In this document: in pieces, positions 12,482-51,167 of the stretch
Layout of the letters: every line of letters starts with the position of its first letter
How positions within the stretch are numbered: position 1 is the first letter of the stretch
Assembly (NCBI RefSeq): GCF_003594885.1
Contig: NZ_QZEZ01000009.1
Span: forward strand, 1-64,000
Reading direction: 5' to 3'
DNA: 64,000 bases
Source: Vallicoccus soli
GTDB taxonomy: Bacteria; Actinomycetota; Actinomycetes; Motilibacterales; Motilibacteraceae
Program-made: the position numbers and the translations under genes
Notes under the pieces: generated by a model
Databases searched by the model: none
Told to the model about the DNA's origin: nothing
The model's input: only the letters and a program-made list of their open reading frames with translations

Positions 12482-12831
12482 CGGGCAGCGAGGACGGTGC
12501 GGCAGCGCCGGCGCCCGCCGGGGCGGGCGCTGCGCGCGGGGGAGCGCCTGGGGCGCGGGGGCGCCGCGCCGTCCCGGGCCCGGTGGTCGGGCCCGCAGGG
12601 ACGTGCGGCGCGGTGCGACGAGCGGTGCGGGTCACCGGCCTGCGCGCCGGTGCCGGTCGGGGCGGTGGCCTCACGCCCCCGGGTGGCTCAGCTGATCATG
12701 CGCAGGACCGTACGCCCCGCCCGGCGCGGGGCGCCACGGCTTTCCCGCGCCGCCGTCGGCGACCGCCCGCCGCTGCTGGATCACCCGGACGGGTGATGCG
12801 CGGGTGCGCCCCCGCAGGCACCCTGGGTGAC
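12482..12831. other. Intergenic region with palindrome, no convincing gene
   Basis: About 350 nt without a supportable gene, between two divergent small ORFs. It contains several G+C-rich hairpins, a single TGATCATGCGC motif at 12693-12703 like the core of the 47.9-kb array, and a perfect inverted repeat ATCACCC-GGAC-GGGTGAT at 12780-12797, 34 nt before the next start codon. The last could be an operator or a small hairpin. Confidence 0.4.
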
Positions 12832-22207: not shown

Positions 22208-23719
22208 ATGACGCTCCCCGACCTCGACGCCGCCAGCAGCTGGATCGGCCGCCCCGTGCTGGACCGCGACGGCGAGTCCGTCGGCACCTGCGTGCGGGTG
22301 CTCGCGGACGACGCCACCGGGACCCCGGAGTGGCTGTCGGCCGAGCTCCCCGACGGCACCCGGCGCATCGTCCCGCTCGTCGACGCCACGCCCTCGGCCG
22401 ACGCCGTGCGCGTCAGCGTCACCCGCCGCTCGGTCGTCGACGCGCCGGCCGACCTCTCCGACCAGCACGTCAGCGCCGAGCAGGAGCGCTCGCTCTACGC
22501 GCACTACGGCGTGGCCGCCTCGACGGCCGCCTCGCCGACCGTGCTCCCCGCGGTCGAGAGCGCGCCTGCCACGGGCCCGGCCCGGCTCGGCGCCCCGGTG
22601 CGGGACCACCGCGCGCAGGCGGCGGGCGCGGCCGCCGTGGCGCTGGCCCTCGGAGCGGCCGCCGTCGGCGTGGTCGTCGCGGTCCGGGCCCGGCGCCGGC
22701 CGGCGACGCCCGCCGAGCGGATCGCCGCCGCCGCACGGCTGCAGTCCGAGCGGGCCGCCTCGCTCGCCCGGAGCTCGGCCGCCTCGGCGCAGGTCCTCGC
22801 CCGCCAGGGCGCCACCTCGGCCCAGGACGCGACCCGCGACCTCCGGCGCACCGCGGCCCCGGCGCTCGCCGCGGCGGCGGAGCGCACCGGCGAGGTCGCC
22901 CGCCGCGCCGGCGAGGGGGCGCTCGGCGCCGCCACGACCACCGCCGCGCTCGCCGTGATGGGCGGGCAGGCCGCCGTACCCGCCGCGGAGCGGGCCGCCG
23001 AGGGCCTCGCCCGCGCCGCCGGCCACGCCGGCGGGGCGCTGGCCGCCGGGGGCGCGGCCGTCGCGGGCGGCGCCCACGCCCTCGCCGGGTCCGGCGGCGC
23101 CGCCCTCACGGCCGCCCGGCCGGTCGTCGCCGCGCAGGGCGCCGCGCTCGCCGGGCGCGCCGCGGAGCTGGGGAGCCGCGCGGCCGAGCTCGGGGCGGCC
23201 GCCTCGCCGGTCGCCGGGCAGGCGGCGCAGCGGGTCGCGGAGGCGGCGCGCACCGTCGCCACCGAGGCCGGCACCGCGGGCCTCGTCGCGGCCGCCGGCG
23301 CCCGCTCCGCCGGCGCCGCCCTCGGCGGCGCGGCGGCGGACGTCGCCGACGCCGCGGCCGACAGCGCCGCGGCGGTCGTCTCGACGTGGCGCCGCACGCA
23401 GCGCCGGCTCGCCCTGCTCGCCGGGCTCGCGGGGGGCTACGTCCTCGGGGCGCGCGCCGGGCGCGGCCGGTACGAGCAGCTCAAGGGCCGCGCCGAGCCG
23501 CTGCTGCACCGCCCCGAGGTGGAGCGGGTCGTGCAGCGGGCGCAGGAGGGCGTCGACGCCGTCATCGCGAAGGTCACCGGGGCGGCGGGCTCCGGGGCCG
23601 GCCCGGGGGGCGGGGGGACCGGTGGCGCAGCGCCCGCGGGCGGCGCGCCGGCAGGAGCGGCACCCGTGGTCGGCCCGGACGGGCACGTGGGGCTAGCCGG
23701 CGGCGGTGACGCGGGCTGA
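22208..23719 (+). CDS. PRC-barrel domain protein with long Ala-rich helical region
   Basis: A 503-residue protein. Residues about 8-95 form a PRC-barrel (SWIGRPVLDRDGESVGTCVRV, PEWLSAELPDGTRRIVPLV). A hydrophobic segment near 137-158 is a likely membrane helix. Residues about 165-390 are an extremely Ala-rich, Gly-containing region predicted to be helical. A second hydrophobic element [20 protein letters not shown] (near 400-420) resembles YtxH-like actinobacterial proteins; the C-terminus is Gly/Ala-rich. Function is unknown; PRC-barrels often bind RNA or protein partners. The ATG follows GGGGAG. Confidence 0.75.
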   Translation: MTLPDLDAASSWIGRPVLDRDGESVGTCVRVLADDATGTPEWLSAELPDGTRRIVPLVDATPSADAVRVSVTRRSVVDAPADLSDQHVSAEQERSLYAHYGVAASTAASPTVLPAVESAPATGPARLGAPVRDHRAQAAGAAAVALALGAAAVGVVVAVRARRRPATPAERIAAAARLQSERAASLARSSAASAQVLARQGATSAQDATRDLRRTAAPALAAAAERTGEVARRAGEGALGAATTTAALAVMGGQAAVPAAERAAEGLARAAGHAGGALAAGGAAVAGGAHALAGSGGAALTAARPVVAAQGAALAGRAAELGSRAAELGAAASPVAGQAAQRVAEAARTVATEAGTAGLVAAAGARSAGAALGGAAADVADAAADSAAAVVSTWRRTQRRLALLAGLAGGYVLGARAGRGRYEQLKGRAEPLLHRPEVERVVQRAQEGVDAVIAKVTGAAGSGAGPGGGGTGGAAPAGGAPAGAAPVVGPDGHVGLAGGGDAG

Positions 23720-23746
23720 CGCGGGCTGACGCGGGCTGACGCGGGG
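23707..23746 (+). repeat. Four direct 10-bp repeats carrying stop codons in all frames
   Basis: The decamer TGACGCGGGC occurs three times and a fourth copy differs in its last base (starts at 23707, 23717, 23727, 23737). Because 10 is not a multiple of 3, the TGA of successive copies falls in different frames; the copy at 23717 is the actual stop of the PRC-barrel gene. Slippage could change copy number without harming termination. Confidence 0.8.
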
Positions 23747-46828: not shown

Positions 46829-47842
46829 GTGCCCGACCTCGGCCCCTTCGGCCTGGAGGCGCACGACCTCGACGCGGGGCTCGCCGCCGACCTGCAGGCC
46901 GGCGTCGAGCAGGTCGAGGCGCTGCTGCGCGACGCGGTGAAGAGCGACTACCCCTTCGTGACCGAGGCGTCACGGCACCTCGTCGACGCCGGCGGCAAGC
47001 GCTTCCGGCCGCTCATGGTCCTGCTGGCCGCGCAGTTCGGGGACCCGCAGGCGCCCGGCGTCGTCCCCGCTGCGGTCGTCGTGGAGCTCACCCACCTTGC
47101 GACGCTCTACCACGACGACGTCATGGACGAGGCGACGATGCGCCGGGGCGCCGCCAGCGCCAACCTGCGCTGGGACAACACCGTCGCGATCCTCACCGGC
47201 GACTTCCTCTTCGCCAAGGCCTCCGAGCTGCTCGCCGACCTCGGGCCCGAGGCGGTCCGCCTGCAGGCGCGCACCTTCGAGCGGCTGTGCACCGGGCAGA
47301 TCCGCGAGACGGTGGGCGCGGGTCCCGACGACGACCGCATCGAGCACTACCTCTCGGTCCTCGCCGACAAGACCGGCTCGCTCATCGCGACCTCCGGCCG
47401 CTTCGGCGCGATGCTCTCCGGCGCCGACGACGCCGCGGTCGACGTGCTCACCCGCTTCGGCGAGCGCATCGGCATCGCGTTCCAGCTCGCCGACGACCTG
47501 CTCGACGTGACGAGCGAGTCCGGCCAGTCCGGCAAGACCCCCGGCACCGACCTGCGCGAGGGCGTCGAGACGCTCCCGGTCCTGCAGGCCCGCCGCCTCG
47601 CCGACCCGTCCGACCCCGGCGACGCCCGCCTGCTCGAGCTCCTCGACGGGGACCTCACCGACGACGCCCGCCGCGAGGAGGCCCTCGCCCTGCTGCGCGG
47701 GCACGCCGCCGTCGACGCCGCCCGCAGGGAGCTGCTGCGCTGGGGGAGCGACGCCCGCGCCGTCCTCGACCCCCTGCCCGACGTGCCCGCCAAGCGCGCC
47801 CTGCAGGCCCTCGCCGACGCCACCGTCCGCCGGGTGGGCTGA
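46829..47842 (+). CDS. Polyprenyl diphosphate synthase (menaquinone side chain)
   Basis: Trans-prenyltransferase of 337 residues. It has GGKRFRPLMVLLAAQFGD, the first Asp-rich motif DDVMDEATMRRG (near residue 93) and the second in FQLADDLLDVTSESGQSGK (near 225). The residues before DDVMD are small-to-medium (HLATLYH), consistent with a long-chain product; exact chain length cannot be read. GTG start with GGAGG 5 nt upstream. Probably read through from nuoN, giving the chain for menA. The 22-bp array begins 15 nt after the stop. Confidence 0.92.
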   Translation: MPDLGPFGLEAHDLDAGLAADLQAGVEQVEALLRDAVKSDYPFVTEASRHLVDAGGKRFRPLMVLLAAQFGDPQAPGVVPAAVVVELTHLATLYHDDVMDEATMRRGAASANLRWDNTVAILTGDFLFAKASELLADLGPEAVRLQARTFERLCTGQIRETVGAGPDDDRIEHYLSVLADKTGSLIATSGRFGAMLSGADDAAVDVLTRFGERIGIAFQLADDLLDVTSESGQSGKTPGTDLREGVETLPVLQARRLADPSDPGDARLLELLDGDLTDDARREEALALLRGHAAVDAARRELLRWGSDARAVLDPLPDVPAKRALQALADATVRRVG

Positions 47843-47856
47843 CGCCCCCCGCCCCC

Positions 47857-48268
47857 TCGGCCGCGATCATGCAGCCGCTCGGCCGTGATCATGCAGCCGC
47901 TCGGCCGTGATCATGCAGCCGCTCGGCCGTGATCATGCAGCCGCTCGGCCGTGATCATGCAGCCGCTCGGCCGTGATCATGCGGCCGCTCGGCCGTGATC
48001 ATGCAGCCGCTCGGCCGTGATCATGCAGCCGCTCGGCCGTGATCATGCAGCCGCTCGGCCGTGATCATGCAGCCGCTCGGCCGTGATCATGCAGCCGCTC
48101 GGCCGTGATCATGCAGCCGCTCGGCCGTGATCATGCAGCCGCTCGGCCGTGATCATGCAGCCGCTCGGCCGTGATCATGCAGCCGCTCGGCCGTGATCAT
48201 GCAGCCGCTCGGCCGTGATCATGCAGCCGCTCGGCCGTGATCATGCAGCCGCTCGGCCGTGATCATGC
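47857..48268. repeat. 22-bp tandem repeat array, 19 core motifs
   Basis: The core GATCATGC recurs every 22 nt at 47865, 47887 and so on to 48261: 19 times without a gap. Each unit combines TGATCA (palindrome), CAGCCGCTC and CGGCCG (palindrome). Only two substitutions are visible: C for T before the first GATC (47864), and G for A after the sixth (47983). There are no spacers, so it is not CRISPR. The period is about two DNA turns, so all TGATCA sites face the same side. Near-identity suggests recent expansion or homogenisation. The function is unknown. Confidence 0.95.
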
Positions 48269-48370
48269 GCGGAGTCGGGCCGCGGGGCGCGTACCCCCAC
48301 TCGCCCTGCCGCGGGGCGCGTACCCCGCCGGCGATCATGCGCGGAGGTCGTGCCGCAGGGCGCGTGCCCC
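48261..48370. repeat. Spaced repeat family next to the array
   Basis: A 19-nt element GCCGCGGGGCGCGTACCCC occurs at 48279-48297 and 48308-48326, and with two changes at 48352-48370. Within each, GGGG and CCCC arms can pair around CGCGTA. The last array unit (48261) and a lone one at 48333 both read GATCATGCGCGGAG and precede copies 1 and 3, so a longer unit of about 38 nt appears twice. Confidence 0.75.
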
Positions 48371-48976
48371 CAGCCACCCGGCCGCGCGGGCCGGGCGGCC
48401 GCCGGTGGGGTGGCGGTCGCCCGCCGCTGCCCGCTCCGCGCACACAGCACAGGGGATGTCCCGGCCGGAGCGGCGCGGCACGCCGTCCCTGCCGGCCCGT
48501 GACGGGTGTGAACCGGGCAGTGCCCCGCGGCGCGGGGCCGGGTCCGGATCCTGCGTCCGGGGGGCCCGAGCCCTGAGGTCACGGGGCTGACGCTGGGCGC
48601 CTTGACGGCGGCAGCGCCCGTACTGCCTGCAGAGCCGCCGGCGAGGCCCGGACTCCGGGTGCCCGCGCAGGGGCTGCGCTGAGGCGGGGGAGCCGTGCGA
48701 GGCATGCCCTGTCCGGTTCGCACCTGCAGTGCACGGCGTGTCCCGGCCCGTCAGGGACGGCACGCCGTCTGCGGCGACCCGTCGTGGGTGCGGGGCGGAC
48801 ACCGCGGTGGCACGCCGCACGCGGTGGGGTGCGGAGCACCGGCTGTGGGCGCGGACGGGACACGCGCGGGCTCAGCCGAGGTGGTGCGCCCCCGGGGCGG
48901 ACCGTCCTCGCCGCCCGCGCGGCGCACCGGGCGGCGGGCGCCCGCTGAGGGACCCGGCGCGACGGCCCCGGGACGG
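48371..48976. other. Non-coding spacer with imperfect direct repeats
   Basis: About 600 nt without a supportable gene; open frames here have biased composition and no good start. A segment of about 40 nt ending in GGCACGCCGTC occurs at 48447-48487 and again, diverged, at 48731-48769. Many short inverted repeats are present. I see no tRNA or known RNA. Confidence 0.4.
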
Positions 48977-49040: not shown

Positions 49041-51167
49041 TCAGGCGCCGACGCGCTTCACGCCGGGGGCCTTGCGCCAGATGGTGCAGACCGTCGGGCG
49101 GGGCATGTCGCCGTACGGGAAGGTCGACAGCGGGTTGTCGACGCTCGCGCCGTCGATCTCGCCGGGGTGCTGGACCGCGATGAGGACCGTGCGCTGGTCC
49201 TCGGTGATCCACGGCCCGCAGCACTCGGCGCCGACCGGGACGGTGGCGAACTGCTTGAGGTGCCCGCGCTCGGGACCGGCGACGGCGACGGCGAAGAGGC
49301 CGTCGTTGGCGCCGAGGGCGTTGCCGTCGGTGGAGATCCACAGGTTGCCGGCGCCGTCGAAGGCCACGTTGTCCGGGCAGGAGATCGGGCTGACCTGGCT
49401 CTTGTCGAACCCGCCGAACCAGGTGCCCGCGTCGGCCGGGTCGCCGGCGACGACGAAGAGCATCCAGGTGAAGCGGTCCGCCGCCGCGTCGCCGCGGCGC
49501 TCGGTGAGCTCGAGGACCTGGCCGTGGCGGTTGGCCGTACGGGGGTTGGCCTCGTCGACGCCGGGGCGGCCCGTCGTGCCGCGCTGGGTGTTGTTGGTCA
49601 GTGCGACGTAGACCTTGCCGTTGACCGGGTTCGGCTCGACGTCCTCGGGGCGGTCCATCTTGGTCGGCGCCTGGCGCACGTCGACCGTGCCGTCGGCGCG
49701 ACGGCCGAGGGCGTCGGCGGCCAGGCGGGTGTGGACGAGCACCTCCTCGACGGTGAAGCCGGGGACCATGCTCTCGCCGTCGAGGACGAGCGGCAGCCAG
49801 CGGCCGGTGCCGTCGAAGGCGCCGTCGGAGGGCAGGGTGCCGGTGCCGTCGATCTCCGCGGCGGGGGAGTCGCCGGTGAGCTGCGCGACGTAGAGGTCGC
49901 CGTCCTCGAGCAGCGTCTTGTTGTGACGGCGCGCGGCCGCCGAGCTGCCCTTGCGGAACGTCTTGCGCGACACGAACTTGTAGAGGTAGTCGAAGCGCTC
50001 GTCGTCGCCCATGTACGCGACGGCGCGGCCGTCCGCGGCGATGCGCACGTTGGCGCCCTCGTGCTTGAAGCGGCCGAGCGCGGTGTGCTTGACGGGGGCG
50101 GCGTCGGGCTCGTACGGGTCGACCTCGACGACCCAGCCGAAGCGGTTGACCTCGTTCGGCTCGCGGCTGATGTCGAAGCGGGCGTCGACCTCCTCGAAGC
50201 GGCGCGAGGTGCTCGTCACCGCGGAGGGCAGGCCGTAGCGGGAGAGCGCGGCGACCTGCTCGGCGTCGGTGACGGCCTCGCTGACGCCGAAGTACTGGTT
50301 GAAGTTCTCCTCGCCGGAGAGGACCGTGCCCCAGGGGGTGACGCCGCCGGCGCAGTTGTTGAGGGTGCCCAGGACGGTGGTGCCCTCGGGGTCGGCGGTG
50401 GTGCGCACGAGCTCGCTGCCGGCGGCGGGGCCGGTGAGGCGGAACGGCGTGCCGACGTGGATGCGGCGGTTGTGCGCGCGGCGGCCGCGGGCCGTGCGCC
50501 GCCACTCACCGGTGCGCCCGACGCGCTCGACCTCGACGACGCTCATGCCGTGGGCGGCCATGGCGATGCGGGCCTGCTCCGGGGTGGACGCGCCGGTCCA
50601 GCCGCGGAACATGAGCTCCTCGTTGGTGTACTCGTGGTTGCACACGAGCAGGCCGCGGTCGTCGTCGCCGTCGAGCGGCAGGAGCGCGGTGAAGTCGTTG
50701 TTGTAGCCGAACTGCTGGGCCTGGGCGGCGGCCGACTGGCGGTCGATGCCGAAGGTCGGGGCGCCGGGGAGCACCGGGTCGCCCCAGCTCATGAGCGGCG
50801 ACCAGTCGTAGCCGTTGGGCACGACGACCGTGTCGAGGGTGTTCGGCGGCACCGACGGGAAGGTCAGCGGGGCCTTCGCGGCCAGCCGCGCCGCGCGCGC
50901 GTCGCCGGTCGCGGCGGCGGCCGGGGAGGCCAGCGGGTCCGTGGAGGCGAAGCCGAGCGCCAGCGCCGCAGCGGCGCCGGCCTTGAGCACGCCGCGGCGC
51001 GACATGCCCTCGGCGACCACGTCGCCGAAGTAGGGGTTCTCGCTGCGGTTCGGCACCGCGTGGTCGCAGGCGTTGCCGCAGCGGAAGAAGCAGGTCATCG
51101 CCGTGCGCCGGCCGCCGGAGTGCCCGGGGACGATCGGCAGGAGGCGACGGGTCGTGCTGGGGTTCAC
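49041..51167 (-). CDS. phoX: PhoX family alkaline phosphatase (DUF839), Tat-exported
   Basis: A 708-residue secreted phosphatase. The long N-region with CFFRCGNACDH (residues 26-36) is usual for this family; the Tat motif MSRRGVLKAGAAAALALGF follows at residues 55-73. The mature part has VPNGYDWSPLMSWGDP, LVCNHEYTNEELMF, LNNCAGGVTPWGTVLSGEEN (family signature), GRFKHEGANV, DRPEDVEPNPVNGKVYVALT and DNVAFDGAGNLWISTDG. PhoX enzymes use iron and calcium and release phosphate from many esters. GTG start with GGAG 7 nt upstream. A PHO box upstream and a strong terminator downstream make it a single-gene unit. Confidence 0.9.
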   Translation of the reverse strand: MNPSTTRRLLPIVPGHSGGRRTAMTCFFRCGNACDHAVPNRSENPYFGDVVAEGMSRRGVLKAGAAAALALGFASTDPLASPAAAATGDARAARLAAKAPLTFPSVPPNTLDTVVVPNGYDWSPLMSWGDPVLPGAPTFGIDRQSAAAQAQQFGYNNDFTALLPLDGDDDRGLLVCNHEYTNEELMFRGWTGASTPEQARIAMAAHGMSVVEVERVGRTGEWRRTARGRRAHNRRIHVGTPFRLTGPAAGSELVRTTADPEGTTVLGTLNNCAGGVTPWGTVLSGEENFNQYFGVSEAVTDAEQVAALSRYGLPSAVTSTSRRFEEVDARFDISREPNEVNRFGWVVEVDPYEPDAAPVKHTALGRFKHEGANVRIAADGRAVAYMGDDERFDYLYKFVSRKTFRKGSSAAARRHNKTLLEDGDLYVAQLTGDSPAAEIDGTGTLPSDGAFDGTGRWLPLVLDGESMVPGFTVEEVLVHTRLAADALGRRADGTVDVRQAPTKMDRPEDVEPNPVNGKVYVALTNNTQRGTTGRPGVDEANPRTANRHGQVLELTERRGDAAADRFTWMLFVVAGDPADAGTWFGGFDKSQVSPISCPDNVAFDGAGNLWISTDGNALGANDGLFAVAVAGPERGHLKQFATVPVGAECCGPWITEDQRTVLIAVQHPGEIDGASVDNPLSTFPYGDMPRPTVCTIWRKAPGVKRVGA

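Follow-up and report, generated by a model that had tools for sequence, protein, structure and literature searches.

What kind of element is a block of nineteen nearly identical 22-bp units lying directly behind a conserved gene of Vallicoccus soli, and does it stand alone or belong to something wider? The block was found in a 64,000-nt stretch of DNA (the window; positions 1 to 64,000 of contig NZ_QZEZ01000009.1), where the locus consists of the following features, types A and B being the two unit forms described below:

46829..47842, + strand: polyprenyl synthetase gene, upstream of the array (Pfam PF00348, E 3.8e-61)
47857..48268, + strand: type A tandem array, 19 x 22 bp, consensus CTCGGCCGTGATCATGCAGCCG, with conserved core CGGCSGYGATCATGCR and free spacer
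48261..48298, + strand: tail of the last unit, with a type B suffix (GATCATGCGCGGAG...GGGGCGCGTACCCC; from the sequence and the type B family)
48324..48371, + strand: solitary degenerate type B-like unit (CCCGCCGGCGATCATGCGCGGAGG...GGGCGCGTGCCCCC; from the sequence)
49041..51167, - strand: PhoX-family phosphatase gene, convergent neighbour (PF05787, E 1.7e-156)

TRF placed the array at 47856-48268 of the window with a period of 22, 18.8 copies and a 99% match and, together with a unit-by-unit listing, bears out the original observation of 19 units with an exact 22-bp period and two substitutions (CGGCCGC for CGGCCGT in unit 1, GCGGCCG for GCAGCCG in unit 6). Starting at 47865, the word GATCATGC recurs at intervals of 22 nt as far as 48261, 19 times in all, and there are extra copies at 48333 and 12694, against 0.52 expected by chance in dinucleotide shuffles of the window. 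The array does follow a conserved gene closely, as had been said: 14 nt separate its start from the stop codon of the polyprenyl synthetase gene, and it occupies an intergenic region of 1.2 kb whose right boundary is the stop codon of the convergent PhoX gene. That it is unlike its surroundings is true in part, given that a degenerate related unit is found 72 bp past the last array unit, at 48333. This solitary unit repeats the tail of unit 19, in which the consensus is lost past GATCATGC. The figure of 19 copies is an assembly value, because another array of the same genome contains a run of 10 N (L022, 2561-2571, 0-based) and contigs C2 (L160) and C3 (L161) both terminate just past arrays; in view of the gap in L022, array lengths in this genome may have been misjudged. 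Elsewhere in the window, GATCATGC stands alone at 12694-12701, and a short perfect tandem repeat of TGACGCGGGC (3.9 copies) lies at 23707-23745.

A search of the whole genome (G000, 4.04 Mb) with the array found 41 related places, on both strands. The word CGGCNGYGATCATGC has 97 exact matches there and 661 with two mismatches or fewer; its reversed control gave 113, a number that understates the background because the reversed word contains CTAG, which is rare. The word TGATCATGC occurs 98 times, compared with about 3-4 predicted by base composition. Statistics for this genome come from 61 stretches fetched around the matches (about 375 kb), with genes called by a purpose-written simple codon-usage caller (90% coding, 77% GC). 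Type A units form head-to-tail arrays with the consensus CCCCGGCCGYGATCATGCAGCyCC, and 130 of 147 close neighbours are spaced by 22 bp; type B units share this core but differ in the suffix (CCGCCGYGATCATGCGCnnRnGG), and they are single or in inverted pairs. The unit comprises the 16-bp core CGGCSGYGATCATGCR and a free spacer of ~6 nt, and conservation across loci is confined to about 16 bp, in a profile whose core positions, but not its spacer positions, are inflated by site selection. Similarity between units is 0.80 within loci and 0.71 between them, and for the spacer 0.63 vs 0.44. Since the core is kept while the spacer is not, and since units are more alike within a locus, it follows that growth was local to each array and began with a dispersed element.

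Such growth fits the homogeneous units within a locus, to which extent the earlier suggestion of a VNTR stands. A neutral minisatellite, in which a chance 22-bp sequence was enlarged by slippage and has no role, would also be in keeping with the near-perfect units of this array and with a locally homogenised spacer, and slippage can account for growth from a few units to 19 here. As a full account it is contradicted: slippage alone cannot scatter the core over dozens of loci and both strands, and it cannot explain why the same ten-base core word, GYGATCATGC, is found in unrelated genomes (below). We regard it as very unlikely.

Three further arrangements were seen in G000. At L138 (3230-3450), type B units alternate head-to-head and tail-to-tail in a BIME-like mosaic. 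The two contig ends, L160 (4558-5033, C2) and L161 (4875-5359, C3), share a 480-bp stretch that is 87% identical and contains arrays in both orientations followed by a TTGACG box; this stretch may lie upstream of a repeated operon that is present twice, rRNA for instance. Two degenerate copies of a longer element, L132 (3395-4106) and L140 (2214-3013), each adjoin a type B inverted pair; this shared element was considered as a core-carrying transposon and rejected, as by eye it resembles relics of HNH-endonuclease-type genes instead.

One earlier reading of the array was that its TGATCA palindromes all lie on one face of the DNA, as would suit cooperative binding by a dimeric protein. The palindrome is not what is conserved, for C precedes GATCA in more than half of the units; with either C or T at that place, it is the asymmetric GYGATCATGCR that is conserved as the core. 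Nor is phasing on one helical face general, as the period is 21 bp in two arrays inside genes and spacings vary in another genome of the class, G033. The same-face palindrome model is thus not supported and was rejected. The conservation of the core across loci, and its recurrence in unrelated genomes, make a sequence-specific factor for it plausible. The alternative of a structured transcript gained no specific support at the array: 14% of tandem arrays built from shuffled units fold as stably as the real one. In the type A unit no conserved stem was found and no Y-R covariation within the unit. The view that the unit matches no described element was upheld by the Rfam search of the window, which gave no match, and by the open-access literature, in which no paper on the unit was found (most subscription papers lie outside that body).

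The 67 clusters divide into 35 flanked by convergent, 14 by co-directional and 4 by divergent genes, 9 that overlap a called gene and 5 at edges; some of the overlaps are merely array ends that extend into the tails of called genes. In the 53 scored clusters, convergent positions are in excess (p = 9e-16) and divergent ones in deficit (p = 3e-4). The reference for both values was the composition of the intergenic space in 20 additional 20-kb stretches of G000, which were picked away from the fetched ones and so are poor in core copies and usable only for intergenic make-up. Single-orientation clusters between convergent genes show no preferred direction with respect to the nearer stop codon (12 sense, 11 antisense). 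Two arrays lie inside well-identified genes, where a 21-bp period keeps them in frame: one encodes PGRDHA repeats in the linker that joins the E3-binding domain of a 2-oxoacid dehydrogenase E2 to its catalytic domain, and the other forms part of the C-terminal tail of a tRNA-modifying enzyme of the MnmA type. A DNA element that can persist only at sites where it is nearly harmless would look like this.

Among other genomes, the same array family is absent from 60 relatives and from 84,980 species (records of the genome itself being left out of the latter), and the exact pair pattern produced only scattered single matches in those species and none in viral contigs. At the polyprenyl synthetase locus of eight other genomes no array was found, a weak negative in that only three of the eight stretches extend past the 3' end of the gene, the remaining matches lying on the minus strand. 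The core decamer GYGATCATGC (GTGATCATGC or GCGATCATGC), on the other hand, is enriched in some members of the class. It was counted in 394 genomes, most of which have about 3-20 copies per Mb; G000 has 218 (54/Mb), G033 433 (140/Mb), G004, of the same family as G000 but another genus, 364 (85/Mb), and G257 and G157, which belong to one genus, 145 and 126 (38 and 30/Mb). Enrichment is weak in G316 (161 copies, 26/Mb), and G002, a congener of G004, has only 30 copies. Because the comparison genomes were found through the core search, their enrichment is a selected result; the 394 genomes include no such outlier for the reversed decamer, a control word that contains the rare CTAG. In the sampled stretches, 82 of 90 copies in G033 and all 40 in G004 lie outside called genes, and among intergenic 10-mers that contain A or T the commonest is GTGATCATGC, its place being taken in G004 and G257 by a word that overlaps it. 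No paper found in the open-access literature, which excludes most subscription papers, describes the decamer as a repeat; for either strand, the titles listed gave only chance matches such as primers.

The suffix that follows the decamer differs by lineage, being AATCCCGCCACCC in G033, A[CG][AG]TCCTGGG in G004, ACGCCAGCGCA in G257 and ACGTTCGCCCC in G157. In G033 two or three units often stand head to tail with core spacings of 23, 30, 34-38, 41 or 54-58 bp. Two other repeats occur in that genome: a second unit, GTGATCAGTCGAAAATCCCC, often precedes GTGATCATGCAATCCCGCCACCC units in the same orientation, both containing GTGATCA (L197, L198, L199, L201); and an inverted-repeat element, CAGAATGCTGGGTT...CAGCATTCTG, lies between the two unit sets of several intergenic regions (L171, L181, L183, L188, L199), CAGAATGCTG being among the commonest intergenic 10-mers of the genome.

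In G004, G257 and G157, units often form close inverted pairs, that is, long hairpins beside two stop codons. Two f31 genomes have a 60-bp hairpin in which the outer 11 bp, GTGATCATGCA, are invariant and 11 of 13 inner pairs have changed on both sides yet still pair; none of 500 shuffles scored as high, in a small sample of five elements, four of them from one genome. Such compensatory changes suggest selection on structure, and they count against purely selfish spread, which would not predict them. Set against MITEs, which have terminal inverted repeats, a target-site duplication and a related full-length transposon, the family showed inverted pairs; no obvious target-site duplication was seen by eye at five f31 copies, and no transposon carrying the ends was found.

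Based on the hairpins and the position at 3' ends, the strongest rival explanation is a role in ending transcripts, whereby the units, above all the inverted pairs, would be bidirectional terminators or 3'-protecting hairpins between convergent genes, with the decamer needed for termination or read in RNA. It draws on the placement at gene ends, to within 14-30 nt of both stop codons at five G157 loci, on units that point inward from both genes in 8 of the 11 core-bearing convergent regions of G033, on the long perfect hairpins of G004, G157 and G257, and on the 11 compensated pairs of the f31 hairpin. These hairpins occur in inverted forms only, however, and no U-tract was seen behind them; a terminator would have no need of a fixed decamer, and the unit itself lacks Y-R covariation. 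For type A in particular an RNA role is disfavoured, because its orientation in G000 is random and the stability of the array is unexceptional for a tandem array. On balance we think a role in ending transcripts rather unlikely.

The convergent excess regardless of orientation, and the combination of conserved core and free spacer, would also be expected of protein binding sites that act at the DNA level, where gyrase or a nucleoid protein might bind and relieve supercoiling between convergent genes, with tandem copies raising affinity; E. coli REPs have been proposed as gyrase targets of this kind (PMC3733652). Yet the core is present in a minority of convergent regions (11 of 36 in G033, 5 of 26 in G004), close relatives such as G002 show no enrichment, spacing is unequal among genomes and there is no known factor, so that such a role seems to us quite improbable. 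Still further down the scale is a DNA uptake sequence like those of Neisseria or Haemophilus, in which biased uptake would maintain the word and inverted pairs would also serve as terminators. Copy numbers of 100-430 per genome for a word of ten bases would suit it, as would the inverted pairs at the ends of genes, but known uptake words accumulate inside genes too, and here none of 40 copies in G004 and 8 of 90 in G033 lie within called genes; tandem arrays are likewise atypical of such words. We consider this extremely improbable.

What the family does resemble is REPs. According to Di Nocera et al. 2013 (PMC3733652), REPs lie mostly between convergent or co-directional genes and near 3' ends, and it is the match with this description that makes the placement of the present family REP-like. 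Its units share with REPs and BIMEs a short length, a high copy number and dispersal outside genes near 3' ends; they stand alone, inverted or in clusters, and a number of copies are found inside genes, as is listed for REPs as well (PMC3733652). The GTAG- and CGTC-tagged REPs of that account come mostly from Proteobacteria and Cyanobacteria, and no actinobacterial family is named. The tag here is instead GYGATCATGCR, which is part of the stem in paired forms, and there is no unpaired GTAG or CGTC tag at the unit end: GTAG/CTAC occurs in 4 of 163 units in G000 and in 0-1 in each other genome, and CGTC/GACG in 26 of the 163, as expected of a GC-rich word. REP units are each a palindrome of 20-40 bp; type A units lack palindromy and follow one another head to tail with an exact 22-bp period, long hairpins arising only from inverted pairs. 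GTAG REPs differ also with regard to RAYT, of which G000 (assembly 98.6% complete) has none; the CGTC REPs, which are not associated with transposase genes (PMC3733652), share this feature with the family described here. PF01797 (Y1/RAYT transposase) is absent from G000, G004, G033, G157, G257 and G060, and one copy was found in G316. REP mobility driven by RAYT was accordingly rejected, six of the seven core-rich genomes searched having no Y1 transposase and G316, with one, being only weakly enriched. In sum, the behaviour is that of a REP-like kind of element with a different tag, its points of departure being the tag, RAYT and, for type A, palindromy.

Other known repeats are more remote. 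Mycobacterium MIRU/VNTR loci are also dispersed intergenic tandem repeats of an actinobacterium and are expected to vary in copy number; MIRU units are about 40-100 bp, longer than the 22 bp found here (a comparison by description, not sequence). Cyanobacterial STRRs are short units both in tandem and dispersed between genes, as here, but these are heptamers, unlike the present 22-bp unit, in which the core is conserved and the spacer free. Rickettsia palindromic elements, like intragenic REPs, are tolerated as in-frame copies in gene linkers and tails; the intragenic copies of the present family, again compared by description, are tandem arrays with a period of 21 rather than 22.

We consider it probable that the array belongs to a REP-like family of dispersed extragenic repeats with a new shared tag, as a member that slippage has amplified locally. 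A trans-acting factor would recognise GYGATCATGCR, and through it copies would be spread, used or both; dispersal would proceed by a copying process that uses the same sequence. Copies would persist where genes and promoters are undisturbed, i.e. in 3' flanks, and once two stood in tandem, replication slippage or unequal crossing-over could expand them, in this instance to 19 units.

More tentatively, and with the balance somewhat against it, GYGATCATGC(R) may be a recognition signal common to several families of the class, which anchors lineage-specific suffixes and hairpins at gene 3' ends and is read by one undescribed non-RAYT factor (mobilising or 3'-end processing), the 22-bp arrays being clusters of its sites. 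That the core marks gene-end repeats in several distantly related bacteria of the class points to such an undescribed signal. In this class, Actinomycetes, neither extragenic repeats nor transcript ends have been well mapped, and the decamer offers a direct handle on them, as a single word with which a factor could be pulled down; core-rich and core-poor genomes provide a set in which the responsible gene could be sought by presence and absence. A third REP-like tag, in genomes whose repeats otherwise differ, would, if true, constitute a new super-family.
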